Translations under genes and position numbers: made by a program | Part shown: positions 21,419 through 63,900 of the stretch, piece after piece | Position numbering within the stretch: position 1 is the stretch's first letter | Layout: every line of letters starts with the position of its first letter | Assembly (NCBI GenBank): GCA_947623505.1 | Contig: CANQGT010000003.1 | Coordinates: 62,001-126,000 of the forward strand | DNA length: 64,000 nt | Origin: an uncultured Clostridia bacterium | GTDB lineage: Bacteria > Bacillota > Clostridia > Oscillospirales > Acutalibacteraceae | Direction: 5' to 3' | The notes under the pieces: generated by a model | The model's database searches: none | Seen by the model: the letters and a program-made list of their open reading frames with translations, nothing else | Told to the model about the DNA's origin: nothing

Positions 21419-21748
21419 TTCTTTTTCCTCCTGTAAAATACTGGAGCGTTTTCCACCCGTTTTCAAACACCCGTCCGTGTGTTTCAAAGCCTCCTTTTAA
21501 ATAACCGAATGACAAAAAAGTCATTCGGGCAGGCTTATCGGCACGCAGCGCAGATGTACGCAAGCCATCGCGCGGGCCGTCTGAAAATCGGTATGATTTC
21601 GCCCGGTTTTAAATCGGACATACTCCGCCGAAATTCCCGCGCAGTGCAGCAACACGCCGCGCGCCACCTCCGGCATCATCGCATATCTTGTTGTGTGAAA
21701 CGGCGCCGTTAATATATATTATATATTAGTAGGCGCTTATCACACGCG
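21419..21748 (-). promoter_or_regulatory. long structured 5' leader of the S10 operon with candidate attenuator
   Basis: About 330 nt separate the promoter from rpsJ. Near its end CCGAATGAC (21505-21513) and GTCATTCGG (21520-21528) form a perfect 9-bp hairpin with a T6 loop, followed on the minus strand by TTATTT, an attenuator-like arrangement. Next comes an orphan AAGGAGG (21494-21488) with no properly spaced start, then a second small hairpin (AAACAC 21465-21470 with GTGTTT 21479-21484). Further upstream lies the palindrome AACGGCGCCGTT and an AT palindrome. No peptide gene is convincing. A role in autoregulation by a ribosomal protein is inference. Confidence 0.5.
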
Positions 21749-22333: not shown

Positions 22334-22381
22334 TCGCGGTAAAAAAACCCGCCCAATAGCCTTGCGTGCTGAGGGCGGTTG
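22334..22381 (-). terminator. strong minus-strand terminator at the edge of the peptide/antisense locus
   Basis: CCGCCC and GGGCGG (outer stem, about 22348-22379) with an 18-base loop, followed on the minus strand by GGGTTTTTTT. No minus-strand gene ends here. Its minus-strand left arm shares AACCGCCCTCAGC with the toxin-end hairpin of unit 2 (22947-22958), so it may be a relic of another unit or a fail-safe that shields rubredoxin from antisense transcription. Confidence 0.6.
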
Positions 22382-22395
22382 GCGGAACAAAATGC

Positions 22396-22424
22396 TTGAT
22401 TTTTGAATTTGCGTTTAGTATGAT
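22396..22424 (+). promoter_or_regulatory. promoter of peptide gene 1
   Basis: Plus strand TTGATT (22396-22401), 17 bases, TATGAT (22419-22424). RNA would start near 22431, right at the hairpin GGACA (22432-22436) / TGTCC (22443-22447), a typical 5'-end protecting structure. Confidence 0.75.
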
Positions 22425-22494
22425 TTATTTAGGACATCAAGTTGTCCGGCAGGGAGCTATCACTGATAACGGTAGGCGGTCAGTCCTCTTTTGA

Positions 22495-22513
22495 CAGAGG
22501 GCAGTGCCCTCTG
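22495..22513 (+). promoter_or_regulatory. hairpin in front of the ribosome site of peptide 1
   Basis: CAGAGGGC (22495-22502) and GCCCTCTG (22506-22513) form an 8-bp stem with a 3-base loop, ten bases before the AGGGGGTG ribosome site. It could modulate access of ribosomes. Confidence 0.6.
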
Positions 22514-22535
22514 ATTGAATTTAGGGGGTGGTGCT

Positions 22536-22607
22536 ATGGAATTGTTTGCAATTATTGCTTTAATTCTCTTTGCGGCCACAGGCTACATAGTAAGCATAAA
22601 AAAATAA
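22536..22607 (+). CDS. 23-residue hydrophobic peptide, candidate type I toxin (unit 1)
   Basis: ATG at 22536 follows a strong AGGGGGTG site (22523-22530). The peptide starts MELF, has an uninterrupted hydrophobic stretch with the block AATGY conserved in unit 2, and ends SIKK. One short membrane helix with a positively charged C-terminus is typical of type I toxins such as TxpA/Fst-class peptides, but no named family is recognised. The stop codon lies inside a hairpin where a convergent antisense RNA ends. Toxicity is inferred from architecture only. Confidence 0.75.
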   Translation: MELFAIIALILFAATGYIVSIKK

Positions 22608-22682
22608 CCGCCAAACCCTCGAAACGTTAGCGGTTATTTGTTAACATTCAGGGCTAACCGTCTATCGGAAAGCTCCCTGTTC
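22595..22682 (-). ncRNA. predicted antisense RNA 1 (candidate antitoxin)
   Basis: A perfect minus-strand promoter at 22689-22717 would start RNA near 22682. The hairpin AAATAACCGC (22602-22611) / GCGGTTATTT (22630-22639) followed by TTTT on the minus strand would end it after about 88 nt. The RNA overlaps the last codons and 3' region of peptide gene 1, as in txpA/ratA or bsrG/SR4-type systems. Confidence 0.7.
22602..22639. terminator. hairpin ending antisense RNA 1, possibly bidirectional
   Basis: A 10-bp perfect stem AAATAACCGC/GCGGTTATTT. The minus-strand tail is TTTTTATGC (good terminator); the plus-strand tail GTTAACATTC is weak, so toxin mRNA may read through. Confidence 0.7.
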
Positions 22683-22688
22683 ATTTAT

Positions 22689-22717
22689 ATTATAGAATCT
22701 AATCTTAATTTTGTCAA
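22689..22717 (-). promoter_or_regulatory. perfect sigma-A promoter of antisense RNA 1
   Basis: Minus strand TTGACA (22717-22712), 17 bases, TATAAT (22694-22689). It is much closer to consensus than the facing peptide promoter, as expected when the antitoxin RNA must be in excess. Confidence 0.85.
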
Positions 22718-22760
22718 CATAATCTTTAAAAATCAATGTGCGGTTGGCGGAACAAAATGC

Positions 22761-22789
22761 TTGATTTTTTAATTTGTGTTTAGTATGAT
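22761..22789 (+). promoter_or_regulatory. promoter of peptide gene 2
   Basis: Plus strand TTGATT (22761-22766), 17 bases, TATGAT (22784-22789), the same as in unit 1. The start near 22797 again coincides with a GGACA/TGTCC hairpin (22797-22801 / 22808-22812). Confidence 0.75.
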
Positions 22790-22850
22790 TTATTCAGGAC
22801 ATCAAGTTGTCCGGCAGGGAGTTATCCATAACGGTAGGCGGTTAAATCCT

Positions 22851-22866
22851 GCCCCTGAAAGGGGGC
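22851..22866 (+). promoter_or_regulatory. hairpin that masks the ribosome site of peptide 2
   Basis: GCCCC (22851-22855) pairs with GGGGC (22862-22866), so the only ribosome-site-like sequence (GGGGG, 22861-22865) lies in the stem. Sequence differs from unit 1, yet both place a hairpin at the same point. Confidence 0.6.
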
Positions 22867-22873
22867 GTTGCCT

Positions 22874-22948
22874 ATGGAATATTTGACAGTAATTGTTATT
22901 ATTCTGATTGCGGCCACGGGCTACATACTGGCAATAAAAAAGAAATAA
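22874..22948 (+). CDS. 24-residue hydrophobic peptide, candidate type I toxin (unit 2)
   Basis: Paralogue of the unit 1 peptide: starts MEYLTV, keeps AATGYI and ends AIKKK. One hydrophobic segment (about residues 4-21) with a triple-lysine tail. The coding part has diverged by synonymous and conservative changes, which suggests selection for a membrane peptide. The ATG follows GGGGGCGTTGCCT, with the G-run held in a hairpin. Confidence 0.75.
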   Translation: MEYLTVIVIILIAATGYILAIKKK

Positions 22949-23028
22949 CCGCCCTCAGCTACCAAACTTAGGCGGTATTTCTTACCAACATATTTGGGGC
23001 TAACCGTCTATCGGAAAGCTCCCTGTTC
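22935..23028 (-). ncRNA. predicted antisense RNA 2 (candidate antitoxin)
   Basis: Starts near 23028 from the promoter at 23035-23063 and ends after the hairpin formed by 22943-22953 and 22971-22980, whose minus-strand tail is TTTCTTTTTTATT. About 94 nt, overlapping the peptide 2 stop codon and 3' region. The first 25-30 nt are the same as antisense RNA 1, so cross-regulation between units is possible. Confidence 0.7.
22943..22980. terminator. hairpin ending antisense RNA 2
   Basis: AAATAACCGCC (22943-22953) and GGCGGTATTT (22971-22980), one bulged base. T-rich tail on the minus strand, only TATTTCTT on the plus strand. Confidence 0.7.
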
Positions 23029-23034
23029 ATTTAT

Positions 23035-23063
23035 ATTATAGAATTTAATCTGAATTTTGTCAA
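23035..23063 (-). promoter_or_regulatory. perfect sigma-A promoter of antisense RNA 2
   Basis: Minus strand TTGACA (23063-23058), 17 bases, TATAAT (23040-23035). Confidence 0.85.
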
Positions 23064-23101
23064 CATAATCTTTAAAAATCAATGTGCGGTTGACATAGCA
23101 T

Positions 23102-60946: not shown

Positions 60947-63900
60947 CTAAAACAGCGATATTTGATTGCTTTCGGGCAAATCGCCGAGAGCTCCGCAGTT
61001 CCTCAGCGACTGAACCACCGACGTTCCCACCTGCGCTCTTGCCATAAGATCATCGCAGGAAAGGAAATCACCGTTACCGTCGTTTACCGCGTCATAAATC
61101 GCTTTTGCGGCGTTTTGACCTATGCCCTTGATGGCAAGAAACGGCAGCCTTATTTTTCCGTTTTCTATTTTATACACGCGCCAGTCGGATTTATAAAGAT
61201 CGACGGGGAGAAATTCTATTCCGCGCGCAAGCATTTCTATTATGACCTGCAAAACGACGTAAGTGCCCTCGTCTTTATCCGTTTTTTCCTCTTTGTCGTC
61301 CTTTTCGCTTATTTCTTTCATTTTTCTTTTAACCGCGTCGTGCCCCGCAACGGCCGCGTCGGCGTCTATAGCCTCGCCGCGGACGGTGAAATAGGCGGCG
61401 TAAAATTCAAGCGGACGGTAAATTTTATACCACGCAAGGCGCAGAGCGGCGATAACGTAAGCGGCGGCGTGAGCCTTGGGAAACATATATTTTATTTTGT
61501 AGCAGGAATCTATGTACCACTGCTCAACGCCCACCGTTTTCATAGCCTCTTCATAGGGAGGCAGTTTTTCGGGAGCCTTGCCCTTTCTTGTTATCTCCAT
61601 AATATTGAAGCAATCTATCTTTGAAAGGGGCGACGGCTTTCCGGTTTTCTTTTCGTATGCTTCCGCTTTGTGGATAAGATACGTCATAATATCGTCACGG
61701 CAGCCGATAACCTCGGATATGGTGCAGGTTTTGTTTTGGATAAGCTCCTGCGCGTTGCCGAGCCAAACGTTTGTGCCGTGAGAAAGACCGGAAATCTGAA
61801 GCAAATCGGCAAAATTCTTAGGCTGAGCTTCCTCCAGCATTCCTATAACGAACGGCGTGCCCATTTCGGGTATGGCGAGCGTGCCTGTTTTGCAGTCGAT
61901 ATCATCAGGCGAAACGCCTATCGGCTCGGTTGAGGTTATGAGTTTATATATTTTCGGATCGCACAGATCAACGTCCATAACCGGTATTCCTGTTGAATCC
62001 TCAAGATACTTGTAAAGCGTGGGATTATCGTGGCCAAGCTCGTCCAGCTTCAGCAGAGTATCGTGAAGCGAATTTTTAAAATCGAAATGTGTTGTATATG
62101 TACCCTTGGTTTTATCGTTTGACGGGTACTGTATCGGGGTGAAATCCTCAACGGAATACTCGGAGGGAACAACTACCATTCCGCCGGGGTGCTGGCCTGT
62201 AGTTCTCTTTATTCCCGTGCAGCCGGCGGAGAGCCTGTCTATCTCTGCTTTTGAGATTCCGTTAAGCAGATCTCTTTCCTCAAGATATTTCTTCACATAG
62301 CCGTAAGCGGTTTTTTCCGCCACGGTGGACATAGTGCCCGCTTTGAAAACGTATTCCTTGCCGAAAAGCTCCTCGGTGAATCTGTGGGAGCGCGACTGAT
62401 ATTCGCCGGAAAAATTAAGGTCTATATCAGGTTCCTTATCGCCGTCAAATCCGAGGAAGGTTTCAAACGGAATTTCGTGCCCGTCTCGTTTCATCGGCTT
62501 ACCGCACACGGGGCAGTTTTTCGGCGGCAGATCAAAGCCGGAGCCGACCTCGCCATGGGTGAAAAATTCGCTGTGCCTGCAATTTTGGCAATAGTAATGC
62601 GGGGATAACGGATTTACCTCCGAAATCCCGCTTAAATGAGCGACAAGAGACGAACCTACGGAACCCCTTGAGCCGACAAGATAACCGTTTTTCTCGCTTT
62701 CCTCAACAAGGCGCTTCGCGATAACATAAAGAACGCCGAAACCGTGAGTTATTATCGAATCAAGCTCTCTTTCAAGCCTTTGCGCAACGTATTCGGGCAC
62801 GGGATCGCCGTAAAGCGCCTTTGCCCTTGACCAGCATTTTTCGGTGAGCTCCTCGTTCGCTCCGTCAATATGCGGCTGAAAAGTTCCGGGGGGTATGGGC
62901 GGTATATCGTCCATTATCATATCGGCTATTTTATTCGGATTATCGATAACAAATTCCTTTGCCCTGTCGCCCGCCCAGGCGAAATCGGCAAGCATCTCAT
63001 CGGTGGTTTTAAAATAGAGGGGGGCCTGGATATCGGCGTCCTCAAAGCCTTTTGAGGCCATTATAACAGAGCGGAATATCGCGTCATTCTCATCAAGAAA
63101 ATGCACGTCACCCGTGGCGACGGTGAGCTTGCCGAGTTTATCGGCCATGGCCACTATTTTTTTGTTTATATCTATAAGATCCTGTTCACTGTTGACCTTC
63201 CAATAGACGTTTTTTCTCTCCTCGCCCTTTTTGCCTGTAACATATTCCTCGCTGCCTGTGCGCAGCATAAAGGCATTGTTCCCGTTTGGCTGAATTTCCA
63301 AATAATCATAAAACGACGCTATTTTTTCAAGTTCTTCATCGCTTTTTTCCTCAAGTATCGCCTGATACACCTCGCCCTGCTCGCAGGCGGAGCCTATAAT
63401 CAGCCCGTCCCTCTTTTTCGCCAGCAGACTTTTGGGGATAAGAGGGCGCGATTTGAAAGTATTTATACTCGAAGAGGATATTAGTTCATAGAGATTTTTT
63501 CTGCCGTATTTTCTTTCTTCCTTAGGTATTGAGGTGTCAAAAGAAGTGTCTTCCTTTACAAGCAGAATTATATGATAACGCTTAAACTGATTGTTTTTAA
63601 GCGCCATAAAATCGGGGTACTTTTCATCATCGACAAGATAGCCCTCCATACCGAGCAGCAGCTTTATCTTGCCTTTTGCCGCCTTATATGCCTCCGGCAA
63701 AGCCTGAACAACGCCGTGGTCGGTTACGGCTATGGCTCTGTGCCCCCATTTTATCGCCCTCTCTATAATCGCTTTCGGAGTCGAAATACCGTCCATTTCC
63801 GAATAAGAGGTATGGAGATGGAGCTCCACCCTTTTTTCGGCGGCATTATCCTCTTTTTCGGCTTTTTCAACGCTTTGCACGGAATTGGGCGTTATAATGT

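Follow-up and report, generated by a model that had tools for sequence, protein, structure and literature searches.

What is encoded by two tandem repeats in a long gap between genes of an uncultured Clostridia bacterium of the family Acutalibacteraceae? The window analysed here is the whole 64,000-nucleotide (nt) stretch at positions 62,001 to 126,000 of contig CANQGT010000003.1 (assembly GCA_947623505.1), in which an initial annotation, made from the letters alone, had proposed two candidate type I toxin-antitoxin (TA) loci, each with a tiny hydrophobic peptide and a convergent antisense RNA. The answer favoured here, with a probability of about 0.82, is that each unit would be a type I TA module with an exchangeable toxin on a conserved RNA scaffold. 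The proposal was confirmed in its outline, and the comparative sequence evidence points to a well-conserved and apparently undescribed clostridial family of type I modules resembling bsrG/SR4. Beyond what had been proposed, many other peptides take the place of this one on a single RNA scaffold.

Two direct tandem copies are present at 22375-23091, spaced 365 base pairs (bp) start to start at their 5' ends and with 87% mean column identity, in agreement with the claimed unit of roughly 350 bp. Each copy has its own sense promoter, a plus-strand open reading frame (ORF) for a membrane-type peptide of 23-24 residues with a lysine tail, again as claimed, and a minus-strand convergent promoter, which had been called near-consensus and carries all 12 consensus bases in both units (coordinates in Table 1). 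Between 21600 and 24000, 11 promoter-like sites were found, compared with 5.5 (standard deviation 2.3) in shuffled sequences. The antisense RNAs of ~90 nt, as placed by a covariance model (R1, see below) among whose source sequences were both window units, cross the stop codon of the peptide in each unit, which upholds the claimed overlap. The type I layout and the bsrG/SR4-like anatomy were borne out as well, the parts having the same order and the sense RNA a predicted main helix between its 5' and 3' regions.

The antisense RNA provides the most uniform part of the scaffold. Among 62 antisense sequences of 85-100 nt, a near-invariant leader (consensus AAGGAGCUAUCCGAUAGACGGUUAGCCC) is followed by a variable linker and a terminator hairpin. 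RNAalifold predicted 15 pairs from an unfitted MAFFT alignment of the 62, with two-sided changes in 10 of the 15, and R1 was built from this alignment. In 115 distinct R1 matches (90 loci), 94.7% of cells were paired and two-sided changes were seen in 13 of the 15 pairs (as high in 0 of 500 shuffles), the rows being aligned to R1, which favours its structure, and a few of them being weak. The predicted antisense terminator and 5' hairpin covary, as would be expected of the conserved hairpins on which the first proposal depended. Of the two strands, the antisense has the stronger U-tract, with a mean of 6.68 versus 5.11 T in 8 bases; this holds in 54 of 62 sequences, and the reverse in none. 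Inspection by eye showed antisense promoters again in the relatives listed, and the promoters, which lie beyond the shared core, are kept more in position than in sequence.

The main conserved structure is a predicted long-range, covarying helix between the 5' and 3' parts of the sense RNA. It joins the toxin leader to the stretch of sense RNA that lies opposite the antisense leader, typically by ~12-15 pairs, a leader bulge and 14-19 further pairs, the first helix being shorter (~7-8 contiguous pairs) in a subset of loci (e.g., L006, L011, L013, L016, L026, L029, and L047). In 59 genus and family units (those of 70 units having both ends), the predicted leader-3' duplex lies between -32 and -53.5 kcal/mol in all, and pairing with the unit's own partner averages -44.2 kcal/mol versus -41.4 kcal/mol with foreign partners (0 of 20000 permutations as low). 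The distinction is wider in 69 units from the broader search (the accepted-ORF subset of 105 distinct R1 hits, a few of them also in the 59-unit set), with -43.9 kcal/mol for own, -30.8 for foreign and -21.4 for shuffled partners; z is below -3 in 63 of these, and the own partner beats every foreign partner tried (~30 each) in 41.

The differences between toxin and antisense leaders support the same helix. Pair-preserving (G-U) transitions number 281 versus 35 pair-breaking ones, beside 103 transversions, and 101 of 109 alignments show the bias in this direction, with 2 against and 6 even; the 109 are distinct alignments from 126 leader pairs after removal of short, low-scoring and duplicate ones. 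Many of the differences come from one site, the A of AGACGG. When this site is excluded, the counts are 78 versus 26 at positions paired in the antisense hairpin and 140 versus 10 at unpaired positions, and among 31 less redundant units 24:5 and 36:4, respectively. Counted per column, 95.8% of 3237 cells are paired, with two-sided changes in 31 of the 35 columns listed (111 of 126 leader pairs). In two columns, an A of the antisense RNA corresponds to a predominantly G-U pair in the mRNA (92/111 and 63/106), suggesting that the 3' region should be held more tightly by the antisense RNA than by the mRNA's own leader.

The units share leader, Shine-Dalgarno (SD) region, terminator and antisense leader, and the peptide varies. 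Besides the AATGY type of the window, peptide types include MEYYYLIITLVLIIVIIFASKK, one beginning with MEYATIITLVLI, MEQIILYLTVVLLILYFLSKK, MEMYFIFALILLYSIGFILSIKK, and MQYVTYSDLIAFAMFIVAIITLVFTILMFTHKK, the last of which belongs to Pfam Hol_Tox (PF16935; 29.2 bits versus a cut-off of 23.3). Among 20 representatives of classes other than that of the window, four score above 23.3 bits for Hol_Tox (29.2, 27.9, 37.1, and 36.8) and three more match it weakly (14.1, 16.1, and 13.9 bits). Ten of these classes were compared with both Pfam and NCBIfam (eight of them also with PHROGs) and ten more with Pfam only, three of the four Hol_Tox matches above the cut-off being in this second ten; NCBIfam gave a weak row to the type I toxin PepG1 (16.6/70 bits). 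The window peptides, described at first as lacking a nameable family, indeed have no match in Pfam (Hol_Tox included) or NCBIfam, and only chance-level rows in PHROGs, no row in any of the three being better than E 0.065.

Pooling of 155 units with an accepted ORF gave 129 distinct peptides, 20-39 residues long, every one of which has lysine or arginine within its last two residues; the 155 comprise 144 distinct stretches, some loci, those of the window included, having entered twice. Average-linkage clustering divides them into 46, 22 or 14 clusters at distances of 0.5, 0.6 and 0.65, so the number of peptide classes is soft; single-linkage clustering at 45% merged 127 of the 129 and was set aside as uninformative. 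The ratio of nonsynonymous to synonymous substitution rates (dN/dS) in four classes was 0.36 (12 units), 0.10 (7), 0.04 (6), and 0.11 (7); the frames are kept in relatives, as a genuine peptide gene would require, and by these ratios the peptides are under purifying selection. A small hydrophobic ORF that has an SD sequence and is under selection, one of the criteria for a type I TA locus, is found here. Two many-copy genomes carry several peptide versions over much the same antisense leader.

Peptide and antisense RNA are also held in a fixed register. In 142 of the 155 pooled units, the stop codon finishes at a point exactly 12 bases within the antisense RNA, counted from its 3' end; since the ORF filter confined most of these units to registers 9 to 23, the telling point is the sharpness of the register and not its presence. 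The commonest final codon pairs are AAA AAA (61) and AAG AAA (37 of 155), and, given the fixed register, lysine tail and stop fall within the antisense U-tract and terminator stem. A toxin-like ORF stands in register at 69 of 105 distinct antisense hits (>=34 bits), compared with 4 of 2590 random positions (0.15%).

The initial annotation had suggested a covariance search, which found relatives in samples ranging from family to phylum. The source genome has a third copy on a different contig, R1 giving 3 copies in the genome as a whole. DNA matches at E<=0.01 occur in 32 of 60 sampled genus genomes (the source genome included) and in none of the other 28, and one genus genome has 14 such matches, several of them partial. 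The exact antisense-leader pattern retrieved 49 stretches from a collection of species genomes, their sources being uncultured Clostridia, Eubacterium, Ruminococcus, Oscillospiraceae, Ruminococcaceae, and similar metagenome-assembled genomes, some from rumen or gut. A profile search of the collected loci yielded the 70 distinct units, whose common core runs from the toxin transcript leader through to the 5' end of the antisense RNA. R1 matches at E<=0.001 were present in 68 of 300 family genomes (47 of 135 genera), 68 of 295 in the order, 54 of 291 in the class, and 14 of 299 in the phylum, with up to 14 per genome; these are nested samples with some genomes in common and the source genome among them, E-values are rough and filters strict, and most genomes in every sample have no match. 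In a virus collection, an exact pattern was found in 22 contigs, 17 of which score >=44 bits with R1, some being near-identical to one another; these contigs carry further peptide types. A distant DNA search with unit 1 gave no match in plasmids or phages, and neither did a search of phages with one Hol_Tox-like peptide.

Other arrangements were noticed along the way. Tandem arrays of two to five units per short stretch occur at L138, L144, L203 and L209, and the copies examined at L138 have a nearly identical toxin. Two side-by-side inverted units lie at L014 (1207-1648), one with its 5' half unmatched, and two Gut-1 RNA matches (RF01706), one above and one below the cut-off, lie near a unit at L022 (2504-2576 and 2728-2647). 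Antisense halves lacking an accepted toxin ORF at L030 (1499-1581), L061 (6424-6542), and L078 (2590-2670) are possibly orphan antitoxins or decayed units.

In the mechanism proposed for these modules, the sense RNA would encode a tiny membrane-inserting toxin whose SD sequence is kept in a local hairpin, and the 5' leader of this mRNA would pair with its own 3' region past the antitoxin terminator. The ~90-nt antisense RNA would be made from the strong convergent promoter; because its 5' leader closely resembles the toxin leader, it is perfectly complementary to the same 3' region and could displace the leader, and its pairing would continue through terminator and stop codon. The paired mRNA should stay untranslated and exposed to double-strand cleavage, as with RatA and SR4. 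The heritable, conserved part would be the scaffold, and the toxin would be swappable. We infer that both promoters are active, that the mRNA reads through the internal terminator and that the peptides act as membrane toxins, and, by analogy, that the antisense RNA displaces the leader and brings about RNase cleavage. In Bacillus subtilis, SR4 is reported to pair at the 3' end of bsrG mRNA, to lengthen the helix that sequesters the SD sequence (from 4 to 8 bp) and to favour cleavage of that mRNA by RNase III, whereas RatA only promotes decay (PMC6562991).

Several results weigh against this mechanism or against the force of its evidence. In 57 of the 59 both-ended units that were folded, the SD and start region is predicted to be unpaired at 0.21 in full, 0.19 in truncated, and 0.20 in 5'-processed mRNA, that is, without difference, and its accessibility is lower in full than in truncated mRNA in 19 of 57, so a closure-driven SD switch is not claimed. 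For the helix to form, transcription of the sense RNA must continue through a hairpin at which it could also stop. In 15 of 57 units, a terminator for the sense strand was recognised past the antitoxin promoter (opposite strand, 4 of 57; shuffles, 1.9%), but both strands have as many of them upstream of the units (12 and 15 of 57), and the 15 include neither unit of the window. Foreign partners often equal the unit's own in the 59 close units, where the own one ranks first in 2 of 59 rows and 3 of 59 columns; leader pairing is weak or absent in 6 of the 69 wider units, and 36 of the 105 distinct antisense hits lack an accepted ORF by the same rule. The leader/antisense alignments maximise identity and favour the paired-cell figures by construction, and the substitution counts are not independent events because the units are related by descent.

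Among other explanations, the one to be taken most seriously, although held at clearly less than even odds, is that the units share an ancestor with bsrG/SR4 and simply form its clostridial branch. The parts of the Rfam BsrG model (RF01412) are ordered in the same way, a 5'-3' main helix being followed by a final hairpin, and window unit 2 can be aligned to the model in its full length, with 17.6 bits against a gathering score of 55. Locus L166 is matched both by R1, as a distant hit (40.6 bits), and by the whole BsrG model (44.5 bits, E 2.9e-7), a score short of 55 that leaves room for common descent with bsrG. It is atypical, however, in that its leader pairs with its own 3' region no better than shuffles do. 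The RF01412 cut-off was reached in none of the 60 genus genomes, the B. subtilis control being positive; at least 15 rows below the cut-off were obtained in the genus, and at least one of the 15 listed (G023:C24) lies at a unit by coordinates. Only L001 gave a BsrG row among the 20 genus loci scanned with Rfam, and R1 finds nothing above 5 bits at the bsrG match in SPbeta, the best score of that stretch (15.5 bits) lying outside it. Rfam scans covered the whole window, in which no family reached its gathering score, the unit region, 20 of 33 early loci, and 20 of the 87 loci L086-L172. Toxin exchange has also been reported for bsrG/SR4-like Bacillus loci (PMC6562991); exchange is thus not new in principle, and its scale here appears to be.

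A micropeptide with a regulatory or signalling function, non-toxic and controlled by the antisense RNA, is an unlikely reading: the peptides are very short and varied, as this would allow, but several scaffold partners are Hol_Tox proteins above the Pfam cut-off, and up to 14 dispersed copies with different peptides, together with the virus-collection contigs, fit addiction or defence modules better. Equally improbable is that the likeness of the two leaders comes only from one hairpin carried by both RNAs and bound by the same protein or RNA. The antisense leader does form a covarying hairpin that is near-invariant in the genus and family set, yet in the wider set the leader covaries with its 3' region from locus to locus, and positions unpaired in that hairpin show the stronger pair-preserving bias. 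It is very improbable that the flanking inverted repeats are the ends of a miniature mobile DNA element with incidental RNA features. The units are multi-copy and dispersed, and they lie between minus-strand genes that we take, from the sequence, to be rubredoxin-like and spo0A-like; in the closest relative sampled (L223, Spo0A 96% identical) the gap between these genes is 329 bp without units, compared with 938 bp in the window. As rubredoxin stands beside spo0A in only 2 of 30 loci (the window and this relative), turnover of the locus rests on one relative, and no clean insertion boundary was seen in that single interval, which is too diverged to show one. The conserved peptide frames argue against a mobile element, and recognition of DNA ends does not predict arm differences that preserve G-U pairs; this G-U test lowers both the mobile-element and the shared-hairpin explanations.

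A more far-reaching form of the favoured type I module can be offered tentatively, and we would sooner expect it to fail than to hold. In this form, the conserved entity might be an RNA control cassette, rather than a family of toxins, with a wobble-weakened 5'-3' mRNA lock, a near-universal antitoxin leader that opens or replaces the lock, and any short lysine-tailed membrane peptide riding on it, since the antitoxin terminator itself encodes the lysine tail and stop. With many cassettes in one genome, the antitoxins might then form a network in which cross-talk is partial and toxins turn over rapidly, perhaps as part of an arms race between phages and bacteria.

Table 1. Predicted parts of the two units, with positions in the window
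Feature	Position	Strand	Evidence
Unit 1 toxin promoter TTGATT-17-TATGAT	22396..22424	+	9/12 consensus
Unit 1 predicted toxin mRNA 5' end, hairpin GGACATCAAGTTGTCC	22432..22447	+	Sequence, fold; start inferred from -10 box
Unit 1 leader arm H1 (contains CAGGGAGCTATC), partner 22668-22680	22449..22461	+	Inverted repeat I17, duplex, fold
Unit 1 leader arm H2 (CGGTAGGCGGTCAGTCCT), partner 22650-22667, one mismatch	22470..22487	+	Duplex, fold
Unit 1 hairpin 5' of SD; 3' half able to pair with SD too	22495..22513	+	Fold
Unit 1 Shine-Dalgarno AGGGGG	22523..22528	+	Sequence; mostly paired in prediction
Unit 1 toxin-like peptide MELFAIIALILFAATGYIVSIKK	22536..22607	+	ORF; class dN/dS 0.36
Unit 1 terminator hairpin, left arm over Lys codons and stop	22599..22642	.	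Inverted repeat I5; covariation; minus-strand U-tract stronger
Unit 1 sense region opposite antisense 5' leader (leader's 3' partner)	22650..22680	+	Duplex, fold, covariation
Unit 1 antisense (antitoxin) RNA	22596..22684	-	Model R1, 83.8 bits
Unit 1 antitoxin promoter TTGACA-17-TATAAT	22689..22717	-	12/12 consensus
Unit 2 toxin promoter TTGATT-17-TATGAT	22761..22789	+	9/12 consensus
Unit 2 leader arm H1 (CAGGGAGTTATC)	22815..22826	+	Duplex, fold
Unit 2 leader arm H2 (GGTAGGCGGTTA + GCCCC)	22833..22855	+	Duplex, fold
Unit 2 SD-occluding hairpin GCCCCTGAAAGGGGGC	22851..22866	+	Sequence, fold
Unit 2 toxin-like peptide MEYLTVIVIILIAATGYILAIKKK	22874..22948	+	ORF
Unit 2 sense region opposite antisense 5' leader	22996..23025	+	Duplex, fold
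Unit 2 antisense (antitoxin) RNA	22937..23030	-	Model R1, 80.5 bits
Unit 2 antitoxin promoter TTGACA-17-TATAAT	23035..23063	-	12/12 consensus

In unit 2, the GCCCC of the second leader arm is predicted to have alternative partners, either the SD sequence or the 3' region. A leader micro-ORF after an AAGGAG motif was considered and rejected by eye, its spacing to the next conserved motif being variable. Elsewhere in the window, an S10-Clostridia ribosomal protein leader (RF03136) is matched on the minus strand at 21599-21687 with 34.0 bits (cut-off 35.1), and a minus-strand promoter with 12/12 consensus bases (21783-21755) lies just upstream of it.

If the favoured reading holds, these modules would add to clostridial genomes a large RNA family that is absent from Rfam as far as tested, and would explain intergenic stretches left empty by annotation. 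The covariance model should find type I loci independently of toxin sequence, which is the usual obstacle, and the units are a natural source of covariation data on a bsrG-like long-range helix in mRNA. The many toxin swaps on one scaffold would also offer a test bed for toxin specificity and antitoxin cross-talk. No description of the family was recognised among the open-access papers listed, as judged from titles and the beginnings of abstracts, which is weak evidence of absence.

Comparison with known systems places the units among several well-studied type I loci. In fst/RNAII (par of pAD1), the RNAs are convergent, share a terminator and carry repeated elements at both 5' ends; these repeats are direct, and hence the two RNAs are complementary at them. 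The units here are likewise convergent, with a shared terminator and 5' repeats, but the repeats are inverted, which is what makes toxin and antisense leaders alike. Type I TA loci of Clostridioides difficile (CD-RCd), likened here by description, also combine a small membrane toxin, a charged C-terminus and an antisense RNA, the toxins reportedly having 34-59 residues, compared with 23-24 in the window. In Clostridium acetobutylicum, an unannotated holin-like toxin gene on the pSOL megaplasmid has been reported, found from a start site (PMC9045289). In txpA/RatA, likened by description, the antisense RNA pairs with the 3' end of the mRNA for a membrane toxin. The mRNAs of hok/Sok and aapA/IsoA (hok and aapA3) are described as having 5'-3' long-distance pairing and SD-sequestering hairpins (PMC6733600), as predicted here; the folds predicted for the units do not show SD switching by closure, and no sequence relation to these systems was found, none having been sought beyond Rfam and Pfam. 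The closest likeness is to the Rfam BsrG model, in which, as predicted for the units, a 5'-3' main helix encloses the SD hairpin and the ORF. SR4 is described as having four stem-loops, whereas the antisense RNA here has ~90 nt with one 5' hairpin and a terminator; moreover, unlike in bsrG/SR4, the lysine codons and stop of the toxin fall within the antitoxin terminator, and the SR4 region of SPbeta is not recognised by R1. The units would work like bsrG/SR4, a likeness of operation rather than a demonstrated membership, and, as in that B. subtilis SPbeta pair, a toxin mRNA and an antisense RNA converge and overlap at their 3' ends.

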